DNA of 64,000 bases, taken from NCBI RefSeq assembly GCF_000974425.1, contig NZ_CP010429.1:2914001-2978000 (forward strand), given 5' to 3'. Below are positions 41,212-46,627 of this stretch, piece after piece. How positions within the stretch are numbered: position 1 is the first letter of the stretch; each line of letters opens with the position of its first letter. The notes below the pieces were generated by a model. It saw nothing but the letters and a program-made list of their open reading frames with translations. It did no database searches and was not told the origin of the DNA. The position numbers were made by a program, and so were the translations under genes. The stretch is from Spirosoma radiotolerans. GTDB lineage: Bacteria > Bacteroidota > Bacteroidia > Cytophagales > Spirosomataceae.

Positions 41212-41700
41212 CTACAGGGCAGAAGGCCTATCCTGATCGTGCCAAAGCCTATGCTCGATCGGGAAGGGCTCCTGCTTAATGATCTGCACCTTCGCAAAGT
41301 CGGGATGGGCCGGATGAAGCAGGTAATTAGACGACATGGGCACGACTACCGATGGGACAGCTGCCACCAAGGTAGCTGAATTCGTCAGCCAATCGCGGAG
41401 AATCCATTGGGTGCGCTCGTAACGCTCATCATTCCAGTAAGGAGGGAGTTCGTCTGGTGAGAAAGCAGTTATCGCATCATCGGGCACCGACAAGGTAAAT
41501 AAAACCAGTTTTGGTAGTTTTTCATACGGAACCCGAGGCTGATGGACTAATGATTCAACTAAGGCCAGAGCCGGCGACGATGTGGTATAGAGCAAGGGGT
41601 AACCCTTTGGGTTCCAGCGGCCACCAAATAACCGGGCGCCTTCAGTAGCCAGCGGTTCGTGGGTGTATTTAGCTTTTACGGTGCGGTAAACAGTCAGCAT
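41212..41700 (-). CDS. RES-domain toxin (NAD+ phosphorylase type)
   Basis: This 162-residue RES-domain protein (Res/MbcT type) degrades NAD+ by phosphorolysis or hydrolysis in studied systems. Conserved positions are Arg in FGGRWNPKG, Tyr-Ser region LYTTSSPALALVES with the Glu, and LPLY-like strands. Fully paired with the antitoxin just upstream (41719-42126), separated by 18 bp, so it is the second gene of a toxin-antitoxin operon. No transposon is near, so the pair is chromosomal. The motif identity rests on family knowledge. Confidence 0.88.
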   Translation of the reverse strand: MLTVYRTVKAKYTHEPLATEGARLFGGRWNPKGYPLLYTTSSPALALVESLVHQPRVPYEKLPKLVLFTLSVPDDAITAFSPDELPPYWNDERYERTQWILRDWLTNSATLVAAVPSVVVPMSSNYLLHPAHPDFAKVQIIKQEPFPIEHRLWHDQDRPSAL

Positions 41701-41718: not shown

Positions 41719-42126
41719 CTAACCAACGATGCCATGTTCGATGCGGCCCAGCACATCATCGACAAGGCCAAAACCGGTTGTCGTGTCTAATAAAAATAAG
41801 GGAGATTGACTGTTTAGCTCCCTGATTGGAGAGCGGAGCCACTCGGCCAGCGTCTCAGCATCGCCGTCGAATACGTCAAGGCCGTGCCGTAACAGATTGG
41901 TTAGTAACAACAAGCGCTCCGATGCGTCGCGGGCTAATTTATTATCGGCTTTGAGCCGGTGCAGATTTCGTATCGACATATTCAAAATGCGGGCTACTTC
42001 AATATCCGTTAAGCCAGCTAGCCCAGCTACGCGATCCGCTTCCGAACGTGGCATGCCCTGCCGCGATTTGTCTATGACGGTATAAGGCGTGTAAACCGGT
42101 GTTTGGGAAGAATGCGTCGGTTGCAT
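41719..42126 (-). CDS. Xre/MbcA/ParS-type antitoxin with DUF2384 toxin-binding domain
   Basis: From ATG 42126 this is 135 residues; an ATG at 42183 would add 19 residues that read as leader. The N-terminal Xre-like HTH (LTDIEVARILNMSIRNLHRLKAD, about 45-67) is followed by the MbcA/ParS/Xre toxin-binding domain ending in LRSPIRELNSQSPLFLLDTTTGFGLVDDVLGRIEHG. Antitoxins of this type block the RES active site and repress the operon. It lies divergently from the response regulator at 42311, with 184 bp between, so both may share control regions. Confidence 0.9.
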   Translation of the reverse strand: MQPTHSSQTPVYTPYTVIDKSRQGMPRSEADRVAGLAGLTDIEVARILNMSIRNLHRLKADNKLARDASERLLLLTNLLRHGLDVFDGDAETLAEWLRSPIRELNSQSPLFLLDTTTGFGLVDDVLGRIEHGIVG

Positions 42127-42310
42127 AATACAAATAGTGTCTTTTTTCACTTCTACAACGGCAATTTGCCAAAATCTGTTCAAGTGGACAAATCAGTACG
42201 AATAAACTAGTAAGAAATAGGTCAATTAGCGAGCGGCTATAGCCTAAAATCGCCCAGAAAGCCCATCTATTGGATTTATTCTATAAATTCGAATGAAGAA
42301 ATGGAGTACC

Positions 42311-42991
42311 ATGAGAATTCTGATTATTGAAGATGAGGTTAAAACGGTTCAAAGTATTAAACAAGGGCTTGAGGAACACCAGTGGGATGTTGATGTAGCC
42401 TATGACGGAACGATGGGGTTTCAACTAGCTACCCGGTCGTCCTACGCCCTGATCATAACCGATATCATTCTGCCCGGTATGAACGGCCTTGAGCTTTGCC
42501 AAAAGCTGCGGGAAGCCAACATAACGACGCCAATTTTGATGCTCACAGCCCTGGGTACTACTGAAGATAAAGTGGTCGGTTTGGATGCGGGAGCAGACGA
42601 TTACCTGATTAAGCCATTTGAATTTCGTGAACTGATGGCGCGGGTCAGGGCCCTGACCCGACGGAACAACAGTGTAGGGCAGTCGGCGAACCTGCTGAAA
42701 ATTGCTGATCTAGAATTAAATCCAGACACGAAACAAGTGGTGCGGGCGGGGAAAGAAATTTTGCTGACAGCCAAAGAGTTCCAACTGCTCGAATACTTCC
42801 TGCGTCATCAGGGGCGGGTGATCTCGAAAGTGGAACTGGCCGAAAAACTATGGGATCTGACCTTTGATACAGGCACCAACGTGATTGAGGTCTATATAAA
42901 TTTCCTTCGCAAGAAAATAGACAAGGACTTTGATCCCAAATTGCTTCATACGCAGATTGGCATGGGATATGTCGTAAAGTTATTGTCGTAA
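42311..42991 (+). CDS. OmpR/PhoB-family response regulator
   Basis: From ATG 42311 it has 226 residues (MRILIIEDEVKTVQSI); the upstream ATG at 42293 would add six. The receiver domain has acidic pocket EDE, the phosphorylated Asp in LIITDIILPGMNG (about residue 51), Thr in MLTALG and Lys in LIKPFEF. The winged-helix DNA-binding domain (about 128-224) ends LLHTQIGMGYVVK. Its stop overlaps the kinase start (TAATG), a coupled pair. The 11-bp-phased TTAAG boxes directly after the operon are a natural candidate binding site. Similar to CusR/CopR. Confidence 0.93.
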   Translation: MRILIIEDEVKTVQSIKQGLEEHQWDVDVAYDGTMGFQLATRSSYALIITDIILPGMNGLELCQKLREANITTPILMLTALGTTEDKVVGLDAGADDYLIKPFEFRELMARVRALTRRNNSVGQSANLLKIADLELNPDTKQVVRAGKEILLTAKEFQLLEYFLRHQGRVISKVELAEKLWDLTFDTGTNVIEVYINFLRKKIDKDFDPKLLHTQIGMGYVVKLLS

Positions 42992-44373
42992 TGATAAACA
43001 TCCGTACCCGGCTCACCTACCAATTTGTCTTCCTTGTAACCCTGGTTCTGTTGTTCTTCTCGCTCGGGGTTTACTTCTTCAGCAAACTTTATCTTGAAAA
43101 ACGCTTCTATAAGCGGCTTCAGGACCGGGCTATAACTACGACGACCCTCCTGTTTGATTTACGACAGACCGACAGTACCGTCTTACGGCTGATTGACGCG
43201 GCTGATAAAGAACCCCTGCTGAACGAGAACATCTCGGTGTATAATGAAAAAACGAAGCAGGTGCTGTTTTCCACCAACCCCGCCAATGCCCGGTTTCACG
43301 AGCAATTTATCCCGCAACTGGATTCAACCGCCCAGGCCTGGTACACCCGCCAAAATGAGTACCAAGTTGTGGCCATCCACCTGGCCGGAGGGAGCGGAGG
43401 TAACTGGGTAATTGTGAGCGGGATTGACCAGGCGGGGAAAGAAGCACTGGATGATCTGAAAAAGATCCTGATCGTCATGATTCTGGTGGCTATCCTGCTG
43501 CTGGGTATTTCGGGCTGGCTTTTCGCCGGCCGGGCGCTTGCTCCGATGTCCGGCATTATTCAGCAGGTCAATGCCATCTTTCCGGCCAATGTGGGGAAAC
43601 GGGTAGAGCATCCCAACCGATCAGATGAAATAGGGAGGCTGGTCACAACCTTTAACCAGCTACTCGACCGCATTGAGCAGGCCCTGAACACACAGAAGAT
43701 GTTCATTGCCAACGTGTCGCATGAATTGAAAAATCCGCTTACCAAGATCAATTCTCAGATTGATGTGGCCCTCATCCAGAAACGGAGCCCGGAGGTCTAT
43801 GAGCGGACGCTTCGATCGCTACAGGAAGATACCCGCTCATTGACACAGTTGACCAATGCCTTGCTGGAACTGGCTAATACATCGGTTCAGGCAGGTAGCC
43901 TGCTGGTTGAACCGGTACGAATGGATGAACTGCTGTGGGAGACGAAAACACAGTTGCAGAAATGGCAGGAAGGCTATCAGATTCAACTCAATTTTGCCGA
44001 TTTCCCGGACAATGAAGAGGACCTGATGACCGAGGGAAACCGGCCTGCCCTTCAGGTACTGCTCATGAATCTGATGGATAACGCCTGTAAATTCTCCCCG
44101 ACAAAAATGGCTGTTGTGACCTTCCGATCCAAACAAGGCAGAATAATCATTACTGTTTTTAACGAAGGGACACCCATCCGCCAGGCTGATCTGCCCCATA
44201 TCTTTCAGCCGTTCTTTCGGAGTGACTCAACCGCTCAATCGAGCAAAGGGCATGGCGTGGGGCTAGCCGTTGTGGCACAGGTCACCCAACTCCATAAAGG
44301 TGATATTGCCGTGCGTTCGACGCCCGAAGGCACTACGTTTACGCTGACACTGCCCAGTATCGCGGCAATTTAA
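42991..44373 (+). CDS. HAMP-domain membrane sensor histidine kinase
   Basis: This 460-residue kinase has two membrane segments (about 10-33 and 158-182) around a periplasmic sensor of about 125 residues, a HAMP domain (to about 240), HisKA with His in FIANVSHELKNPLTKINSQ, and HATPase_c with LLMNLMDNACKFS (N box), IFQPFFRSD (F box region) and HGVGLAV (G2). It pairs with the overlapping OmpR-type regulator and looks like a heavy-metal/envelope kinase of the CusS type; the ligand is not known. Its stop codon overlaps the first TTAAG box. Confidence 0.93.
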   Translation: MINIRTRLTYQFVFLVTLVLLFFSLGVYFFSKLYLEKRFYKRLQDRAITTTTLLFDLRQTDSTVLRLIDAADKEPLLNENISVYNEKTKQVLFSTNPANARFHEQFIPQLDSTAQAWYTRQNEYQVVAIHLAGGSGGNWVIVSGIDQAGKEALDDLKKILIVMILVAILLLGISGWLFAGRALAPMSGIIQQVNAIFPANVGKRVEHPNRSDEIGRLVTTFNQLLDRIEQALNTQKMFIANVSHELKNPLTKINSQIDVALIQKRSPEVYERTLRSLQEDTRSLTQLTNALLELANTSVQAGSLLVEPVRMDELLWETKTQLQKWQEGYQIQLNFADFPDNEEDLMTEGNRPALQVLLMNLMDNACKFSPTKMAVVTFRSKQGRIIITVFNEGTPIRQADLPHIFQPFFRSDSTAQSSKGHGVGLAVVAQVTQLHKGDIAVRSTPEGTTFTLTLPSIAAI

Positions 44374-44407
44374 GGTAAATTTAAGGTGAGCTTAAGTCGT
44401 GCTTAAG
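44370..44407 (+). promoter_or_regulatory. Four TTAAG direct repeats at an 11-bp period
   Basis: TTAAG occurs at 44370, 44381, 44392 and 44403, spaced exactly 11 bp. Eleven-base direct repeats are the binding pattern of OmpR/PhoB regulators. The array lies between the two-component operon and the next gene; a -7-like TTGCTTTG follows at 44418-44425 before the ATG at 44448. Confidence 0.65.
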
Positions 44408-44447
44408 TTCGATGTCGTTGCTTTGTCATGAATCATCAAACCGGATA

Positions 44448-45398
44448 ATGGAAGCAGACGTAGCCAATGAAAAGCAGGGTGTGCTGAACATAACCATGGG
44501 TGCCCTGCTGGGAGTGCTGGCGTTGCTGGCCTATTTATTCCTTGGGTCTCGCAATGAGACGCTGGAAGTTCAGAAATTACTGACCGCCAAAGTAGAGCAA
44601 TTTGCCTCCACACAAATCAAGCTTGATTCCATCTCAAACGTGCTGGACGCCAAGATCATCGAGGTGCGTCAGCTTGGCGGTAGCGTCACCGAACTGGAGC
44701 GAATCAAACGGCAGCTGATAATCGACAAGAAGCGGCTCAAGTATGATCTGACTTTCTCCATGCAGCAGTACAGCCTGAAAATCAGGGATTACAAAAATTT
44801 CCTGGCGCAAAACGAAGCGAATGTCCACGCGCTTAAGGCCGAAAACGGCTCACTGCTTAGCCAGACACGGGCGCTCGAAGAAGAAAAAGAAAGCATCCTG
44901 AGCGAAAATACGGGCTTAAAGTATGAACGGGCCGCATTAGCCAAAGCGGTCGTTGATTATTCGCTGAAGAATGCCGACTTAACGAACAAAGTAACGCTTG
45001 CTTCAGCCATGAAGGCCATCAACGTAGAGGTGATGGCGGTTGCTGATAACGGAAAAGAGCGCCGGGGCGGCACGTACAAAGCATCGCGCATTGACCGCCT
45101 GAAAATAGACTTTGTTTTACTCGCCAATCCGTTAGCATCGGCCACCAGCAAAGATGTTTATGTACGTATACTGGATGCGAACGGGGCTGTTGTTAGCGAA
45201 AGCGGCATTGGTGGCGTTATGCTTTTTGACGGCCATGAGCTTGGCTACAGCACGCATCAGACCGTACCGTTTGACGGTGATGACCAACGGGTCGATATTC
45301 TTTTCCGCAGGGAGGCTCCCTACAGGCCCGGCACCTATACCGTCGAATTATACACGGAAGGCTCCCGAATCGGCGATGCCCATTTCGTTGTAAAATAG
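44448..45398 (+). CDS. Membrane-anchored coiled-coil protein of unknown function
   Basis: From ATG 44448 the protein has 316 residues (MEADVANEKQG...); the ATG at 44412 is disfavoured because the boxes and -7 motif lie around it. One membrane segment (about 14-34, NITMGALLGVLALLAYLFLG) is followed by a long coiled coil (about 40-190) and a C-terminal beta domain (about 200-316; VMAVADNGKERRGGTYKASRIDRLKIDFVLLAN). The family is unrecognised. Its placement right after the two-component system behind the TTAAG boxes suggests it is a target (inference). Confidence 0.8.
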   Translation: MEADVANEKQGVLNITMGALLGVLALLAYLFLGSRNETLEVQKLLTAKVEQFASTQIKLDSISNVLDAKIIEVRQLGGSVTELERIKRQLIIDKKRLKYDLTFSMQQYSLKIRDYKNFLAQNEANVHALKAENGSLLSQTRALEEEKESILSENTGLKYERAALAKAVVDYSLKNADLTNKVTLASAMKAINVEVMAVADNGKERRGGTYKASRIDRLKIDFVLLANPLASATSKDVYVRILDANGAVVSESGIGGVMLFDGHELGYSTHQTVPFDGDDQRVDILFRREAPYRPGTYTVELYTEGSRIGDAHFVVK

Positions 45399-45445: not shown

Positions 45446-46627
45446 ATGTTACCATATAAAAAAATCATCCATCAATTGTCCGTTACCTTTCAGCCTCTGC
45501 TGGAAACGCTGAATAGCGAAAGACGGGTGTTCGTCGGTAGATACCGGCGTTTTCCGGTGGCTTACACGGCACTCAGCTACCTCTTTGTGTCTATGGCATT
45601 CTGCTATTATCCAATTGTCAACCATTGGCTATCGGGTTTCATCATGATGAGCTTACCGCTAGCCATCCTCCTGGGGTTGGCCGCCTGCATTTATCTGTTT
45701 TGTCAACAGCAGAAAATGATTGCCACAGCGGGTATTATCTGGGTCTTGTTCTCGTTTGTGGTCGTTAAAAGGCTGGTGGGTATACAAGACGGAGATCGTG
45801 ATCTAAGCCAGGCACAAACCCTCAATGTGTTGAGTTTCAACAGCGAAACGTTCCCGGTAACGGGTAGAAGTAAGATCGATGCTTCGCTGCTAAAGGCGGA
45901 TATTGCCTGTTTTCAGGAGTATTCGCCCAACGCTCAGCTAGAGCGTCAGTACACCGATAAGCTTCTGAAGTTGACCTGTTTTGACGAAGACCGGGAAATA
46001 GGACTGGCCTTATTTTCCAAATACCCGATTGTGAACCAGTACAGCCGAATCTGGAACCGGGAGAAGGCCCCGAATATCAATGGTTTCCTATGCGCCGACA
46101 TCGCGTACGGAGCCGATACCATTCGGGTCGTTAATGTGCATTTGTGGTCGATGGGTGTGCGAACCGAACAGGCATTGAAGGCGCTTAAAGCGGGTCATTT
46201 GGGCCGCTTTTCCCTCGAATTACTCGACACATTTCAGCGGATGAAAGAGGGGTTCGAGCACCGAAGTGAACAGCTTCAGGAGGTTGAATCCTATGTAGCG
46301 GGCAGCCGATATCCGGTCATTATTTGTGGCGACTTCAACGAAACACCCATTAGCTATTCTTACGGAAAACTCAGCCAGAACTTCAGGAATGCCTTTGAGG
46401 AGGCCGGACAGGGGCTTGGCTTTACGCTGAACCGACACCCGTATTGCGTGCGAATTGACCAGCAGTTTTTCAGCGCCGACTGGCACATCAAAACCTGCCA
46501 GACATTATCGGGCGTTTCCTTCTCCGATCACTTTCCGGTATTGGCCCAGTACGTACTTAAAAAGTCGTTAGTGGTACCCACCGATGTTCTGGCACAGCAC
46601 CAGCCAACTCGCCCAGCCGCCAATTGA
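45446..46627 (+). CDS. Membrane-anchored endonuclease/exonuclease/phosphatase-family protein
   Basis: This 393-residue protein starts with two to three membrane segments (about 40-130) and then an EEP domain: FNSETFPV..., DIACFQEYSPN, VVNVHLWSMGV, ICGDFNETP and SDHFPVLAQY. Asp/His of GDFN and SDH and the Glu of FQEY are the expected metal and catalytic residues. Such proteins include nucleases, phosphodiesterases and sphingomyelinase-like enzymes. It follows the coiled-coil gene by 47 bp and could be in the same unit. A short hairpin follows at 46672. Confidence 0.88.
   Translation: MLPYKKIIHQLSVTFQPLLETLNSERRVFVGRYRRFPVAYTALSYLFVSMAFCYYPIVNHWLSGFIMMSLPLAILLGLAACIYLFCQQQKMIATAGIIWVLFSFVVVKRLVGIQDGDRDLSQAQTLNVLSFNSETFPVTGRSKIDASLLKADIACFQEYSPNAQLERQYTDKLLKLTCFDEDREIGLALFSKYPIVNQYSRIWNREKAPNINGFLCADIAYGADTIRVVNVHLWSMGVRTEQALKALKAGHLGRFSLELLDTFQRMKEGFEHRSEQLQEVESYVAGSRYPVIICGDFNETPISYSYGKLSQNFRNAFEEAGQGLGFTLNRHPYCVRIDQQFFSADWHIKTCQTLSGVSFSDHFPVLAQYVLKKSLVVPTDVLAQHQPTRPAAN

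Follow-up and report, generated by a model that had tools for sequence, protein, structure and literature searches.

Within the window, by which we mean the whole analysed stretch of 64,000 nucleotides of Spirosoma radiotolerans (the source contig is a single 7.03-Mb chromosome), genes for a response regulator and a sensor histidine kinase are followed by four TTAAG boxes, a predicted -7 element and two further genes, all on the forward strand (Table 1). The boxes form a genuine regulatory element, which is strongly conserved and precedes a predicted two-gene operon.

Table 1. Features of the two-component locus and its predicted target operon (positions are those of the window).
Feature	Coordinates	Strand	Basis and remarks
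OmpR/PhoB-family response regulator (receiver and winged helix)	42311..42991	+	Pfam PF00072, PF00486
Sensor histidine kinase (HAMP, HisKA, HATPase_c)	42991..44373	+	Pfam PF00672, PF00512, PF02518
Box 1, TTAAG	44370..44374	+	Unchanged at all 24 orthologous loci; encloses the stop codon of the kinase gene, TAA (44371-44373)
Box 2, TTAAG	44381..44385	+	TTAAA in about half of the orthologs
Box 3, TTAAG	44392..44396	+	Invariant in 24 orthologs; predicted position, over the -33 region
Box 4, TTAAG	44403..44407	+	CTAAG at the three divergent loci; predicted position, between -33 and -7
-7 element (predicted), TTGCTTTG	44418..44425	+	TTTG at 44422-44425; Bacteroidota consensus TAnnTTTG (PMC7366714)
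Target gene 1 (predicted), membrane-anchored coiled-coil protein, 316 aa, C-terminal beta-sandwich	44448..45398	+	AlphaFold2; orthologs
Target gene 2 (predicted), endonuclease/exonuclease/phosphatase-family protein	45446..46627	+	PF03372

Both domains of the regulator scored above their cut-offs (PF00072, 98.3 bits; PF00486, the winged-helix Trans_reg_C domain, 79.9 bits), which places the protein in the OmpR/PhoB family and bears out the original description of an OmpR-type regulator encoded just upstream. Its best NCBIfam model was TIGR01387 (CzcR/SilR/CopR), for which its 246.5 bits fell short of the cut-off of 279.2, and it is not assigned to that family by that measure. The kinase scored 186.9 bits against TIGR01386, whose cut-off is 292.6. 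The regulator was likewise not identified as a PmrA ortholog, as it scored 173.4 bits on NF007928 versus a cut-off of 330, and the nearest solved DNA-binding domain was that of PcoR (2jzy).

No array was present in 20 aligned regions upstream of the regulator gene and autoregulation through such an array is not indicated for this locus. The 20 aligned orthologs do carry a conserved TTATTTC-TATA-ATTCGA block before the regulator start (42250-42310 of the window), without a YTAAN array, and this block may be a separate promoter. Just upstream, two minus-strand genes (41212-41700 and 41719-42183) probably form a toxin-antitoxin pair, as they encode a RES-domain protein and a partner of the Xre/MbcA/ParS antitoxin type.

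The gene downstream of the array has a conserved start at 44448, and a mechanical list of open reading frames puts the start at 44412. Its product had no match in Pfam or NCBIfam, and the AlphaFold2 model (mean pLDDT 82, pTM 0.50) consists of an N-terminal membrane helix, a long coiled coil and a C-terminal beta-sandwich, in keeping with its earlier description as an unrecognised coiled-coil membrane protein. No function is assigned from the fold, since the matches in the PDB, which included the carbohydrate-binding domain of Wzt, parts of GH3 enzymes and immunoglobulin-like proteins, were to a generic beta-sandwich only, with TM scores of at most 0.27 over the query. The PF03372 gene begins 47 bp after the coiled-coil gene, in the same predicted operon. 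Orthologs of the coiled-coil protein directly 3' of the array are 69-76% identical, and the order of regulator, kinase, array, coiled-coil gene and PF03372 gene is kept at the orthologous Spirosoma loci and at four loci from other genera of the same family (L227, L230, L234 and L243). The kinase, coiled-coil or PF03372 gene was split over two frames at three loci (L074 in genome G032, L107 in genome G004, and L310), owing either to frameshift mutations or to sequencing errors.

The coiled-coil protein also has two paralogs elsewhere in its own genome (about 40-43% identity), and the stretches fetched around these two genes contained no match to the array pattern. At three loci (L142, L143 and L144) coiled-coil paralogs lie about 4-6 kb from a paralogous kinase-regulator pair, and these loci bear heavy-metal efflux genes, at least in some genomes.

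The array itself had been described as TTAAG copies at 44370, 44381, 44392 and 44403, overlapping the kinase stop codon and phased at exactly 11 bp in a manner improbable by chance. All of these points stood: the four boxes start at those positions on the forward strand, at an exact 11-bp period, with the stop codon inside box 1. Given the frequency of TTAAG in the window (7.2e-4), a four-box array is expected analytically about 3e-8 times per window and about 4e-6 times in the 7.03-Mb genome, and a first-order Markov simulation of 300 windows produced no three-box or four-box array. Even the pair TTAAG-N6-TTAAG, expected 0.11 times from shuffled sequence, had four matches in the window, every one of them at the array (CTTAAG being a palindrome, one of them is read from the minus strand).

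The conservation of the array was assessed in 36 Spirosoma genomes, 24 of which have an ortholog of the kinase (77-83% identity, plus three loci at about 55%). Lack of conservation of the phased boxes before the orthologous downstream gene in relatives had been set beforehand as a result that would refute the original prediction. The array passed this test: four boxes at 11-bp spacing were found in that position in each of the 24 genomes, and no array deviated at more than one of its 20 box positions. Information content was 1.92 bits per column in the boxes, 1.29 in the spacers and 1.76 in the -7 octamer, versus 0.64 in the upstream sequence and 0.35 in the leader. The strict pattern TTAAG-N6-TTAAR-N6-TTAAG-N6-YTAAG occurred exactly once in each of the 24 genomes and in none of the 12 that lack the kinase ortholog, and its reversed control had no match in the genus. 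In four genomes the kinase stop is separated from the array by 95, 114, 225 or 245 bp. Array, TTTG and gene nevertheless keep their order and spacing there, and the array is therefore part of the promoter downstream rather than of the kinase gene's end. The insertions responsible are at L055, L056, L060 and L074, and the one at L060 resembles a palindromic element (AGAACGCTGATTTTT ... AAAAATCAGCGTTCT).

These searches also defined the extent of the regulon that had been predicted. Since the strict four-box TTAAG pattern is present only once per genome, the predicted target is one operon, and a many-gene regulon of TTAAG arrays was rejected. Similar arrays elsewhere mostly belong to other, paralogous regulators.

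A -7-like element had been reported to follow the array, and TTGCTTTG is present there, with a TTTG that is invariant in the 24 orthologs and a distance from box 4 to TTTG that is locked throughout the genus. The primary promoter of Bacteroidota, recognised by sigma-ABfr, has TAnnTTTG at -7 and TTTG at about -33 (PMC7366714). The array promoters share the invariant TTTG of the -7 element with this promoter; in contrast, the position of TA reads TT at the focal locus, and the boxes appear to replace the -33 element. Taking the TAnnTTTG consensus as a guide, transcription should start near 44430. Relative to this start, the four boxes would occupy approximately -60 to -56 (box 1), -49 to -45 (box 2), -38 to -34 (box 3) and -27 to -23 (box 4).

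Weaker arrays elsewhere in the S. radiotolerans chromosome also stand at a constant distance from TTTG, and from them a general pattern was derived, of which the focal array is one instance, YTAA-N7-YTAA-N7-YTAA-N7-YTAA-N15-TTTG. This pattern had seven exact matches in the S. radiotolerans genome and 177 in the genus, where 34 of the 36 genomes had at least one; the reversed pattern had none in either. In the family it was identified in 156 of 201 genomes, which represent 29 of 36 genera (reversed, one match in total). In a sample of the phylum outside the family it was present in 24 of 216 genomes, with one or two matches each (reversed, four), indicating that the pattern is concentrated in the family to which Spirosoma belongs. 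When the gap to TTTG was left free between 5 and 30 in a search in which the first two boxes were TTAA, 129 matches were obtained, of which 87 had a gap of 15 and 15 a gap of 14, while the other 24 spacings together accounted for 27 (spacings were tallied by hand from match lengths). This peak, together with the absence of any match in the genus at a 10-bp or 12-bp period, shows that both the period and the distance to the -7 element are locked. Short half-sites repeated in the same orientation every 11 bp are characteristic of OmpR/PhoB-family sites, and the arrays conform to this arrangement, as originally proposed.

Some arrays occur as diverging pairs about 50-60 bp apart (G001:C1:2729553-2729607 with 2729668-2729723, G007:C4:1228716-1228771 with 1228822-1228876, and G027:C3:245196-245251 with 245302-245356). 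Each pair has a TTAAA-type array with a gap of 15, which in the cases examined precedes a lone regulator gene, and an array with a gap of 14 that points in the opposite direction. Arrays of the gap-14 class are present in many genomes. In addition, seven genomes from distant Bacteroidota families (G236, G248, G283, G349, G385, G389 and G275) have mutually similar four-box arrays of the TTAAC/TTAAT type with the same geometry, the sequences suggesting a conserved regulator target outside the family of Spirosoma.

The proposed link between the phased boxes and OmpR/PhoB-type regulators found support in the surroundings of the arrays. An OmpR-type regulator was encoded in 35 of 60 array regions of about 12-20 kb and in none of 20 random regions from the same genus (Fisher p 9.5e-7); three of the 60 had been picked for likeness to the focal array, and without them the count is 32 of 57. 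A related kinase was present in 30 of the 60 array regions versus one of the 20 random ones. The remaining 25 array regions had no OmpR regulator within about 7 kb, and thus some arrays must work with distant regulators. Three arrangements recurred: regulator, kinase, array and target as at the focal locus (e.g., L236, L241, L276, L280 and L294), an array upstream of a CzcA/CusA-type efflux operon, with the regulator and kinase genes after the operon (L269, L277 and L295), and an array directly 5' of a lone regulator gene (L270, L273, L287 and L291). Other targets, judged by eye from sequence, included OtsAB-like trehalose synthesis genes and TolC-like proteins. The recognition helices of the array-linked regulators were very similar (GTNVIEVYINFLRKKI and close variants), which fits the common YTAAN core of the boxes.

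Several known systems resemble this arrangement in part. ArcA of E. coli is also an OmpR/PhoB-family regulator whose sites extend beyond one dimer, mostly as three to five direct repeats at mainly 11 bp centre to centre (PMC3798270); however, the number and spacing of ArcA repeats vary, whereas the Spirosoma array has exactly four YTAAN boxes and a single, invariable distance to the -7 element. The PmrA/BasR box of Klebsiella and Salmonella has nearly the same half-sites (CTTAAG, CTTAAT and CCTAAG), arranged head to tail 5 bp apart and so at an 11-bp period (PMC3973317), but it comprises two half-sites and not four, and the Spirosoma regulator is not PmrA, being closer to CopR/CzcR/PcoR. The SARP AfsR, an OmpR-type winged-helix protein, binds as a dimer to the two 11-bp direct repeats of the 22-bp afs box (-40 to -19), where it overlaps the -35 element and touches sigma region 4 (PMC10936776). 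The 3' repeat of that box is at a fixed distance from the -10 element and the position of the box coincides with that inferred for boxes 3 and 4; unlike the Spirosoma regulator, SARPs are not response regulators, and they act on two repeats at actinobacterial promoters. Lastly, the CzcR/SilR/CopR family gave the best NCBIfam model, and several of the other arrays stand before CzcA/CusA-type efflux operons that have regulator and kinase genes next to them, although the score is under the family cut-off and the focal target is not an efflux system. No title or abstract in the open-access literature searched described a direct-repeat motif for an OmpR regulator of Bacteroidota. Direct-repeat sites of the OmpR family are known, and we have moderate confidence that the four-box, promoter-locked architecture shared across paralogous systems, not found in that literature, is new.

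Starting from what was observed in the analysis, namely the boxes, their phase and conservation, the promoter-locked spacing, the co-occurrence with the kinase and the general linkage to OmpR-type regulators, we consider it probable that the array is the binding site for two tandem OmpR/PhoB-family dimers, most likely of the regulator encoded at 42311, that activate a promoter with a -7 element only. Each monomer would set its recognition helix on one YTAAN half-site, the four half-sites being co-directional and presented one per 11-bp turn. One dimer would occupy boxes 3 and 4, which span the -33 region and the spacer leading up to the -7 element, with the second behind it on boxes 1 and 2. 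The phosphorylated regulator would then touch sigma, substituting for the missing -33 recognition, and transcription of the coiled-coil gene and the PF03372 gene would be switched on. Within this scheme we infer the binding itself, its dependence on phosphorylation, the identity of the binding regulator and activation over repression. It counts against this reading that array and two-component genes are physically linked, so that their co-occurrence could arise from gain and loss of one cassette instead of direct interaction, as do the 25 array regions without a nearby OmpR regulator and the lack of an array before the regulator gene.

Three other explanations were weighed. The array may instead be bound by a paralogous OmpR-family regulator of the same genome, with the adjoining kinase-regulator pair a mere genomic neighbor. 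This is plausible to the extent that paralogous regulators with very similar recognition helices (GTNVIEVYINFLRKKI variants) adjoin similar arrays, so that cross-recognition could take place. We nevertheless regard it as unlikely, since the TTAAG four-box array tracks the kinase ortholog (24/24 versus 0/12), whereas the paralogs are present in all genomes. Moreover, at the four loci in other genera the array again follows a regulator and kinase that are 76-83% and 62-69% identical, respectively, to the focal pair.

A repressor site, at which the regulator sits on the -33 region and keeps RNA polymerase out until it is released by a signal, would suit the overlap of boxes 3 and 4 with the predicted -33 region and spacer, but we judge it slightly less likely still than binding by a paralog. 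Simple steric blocking needs no locked spacing, yet over the 129 matches the distance to the -7 element was fixed to one or two values, as expected of contact between an activator and polymerase, and the proteins that bind comparable repeats, SARP and PmrA, are activators (PMC10936776, PMC3973317). That the array is no protein-binding site at all, but a tandem duplication, the end of a mobile repeat or a chance effect of the kinase stop codon, seems extremely improbable. Box 1 does overlap the stop codon and slippage can yield short tandem repeats. However, the six-base spacers (GTAAAT, GTGAGC and TCGTGC) are all different, so that the array is not a duplicated unit, the array is conserved in 24 genomes, including those in which it is detached from the stop codon, and the same fixed geometry recurs across the family in unrelated contexts with nothing at a 10-bp or 12-bp period. 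On these grounds both tandem duplication and a mobile repeat were ruled out.

Returning to activation by two tandem dimers, we think it somewhat favored that the arrays represent a promoter class, in Spirosoma, its family and sporadically in other Bacteroidota, in which four YTAAN boxes and two dimers replace the -33 element at a fixed distance from TTTG, and that a clade of paralogous two-component systems shares this geometry, its members differing only in half-site variants. If this is true, the target operons of many uncharacterised regulators would be readable directly from sequence. For environmental Bacteroidota, few regulatory targets of two-component systems are known, and the signature, with 177 matches in the genus versus none for three controls, allows operons to be assigned to OmpR-type regulators by sequence alone. 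At the focal locus, a conserved, uncharacterised coiled-coil membrane protein and a PF03372 protein become the single predicted output of a signalling system. More broadly, the signature points to a route by which promoters without a -33 element may be activated.
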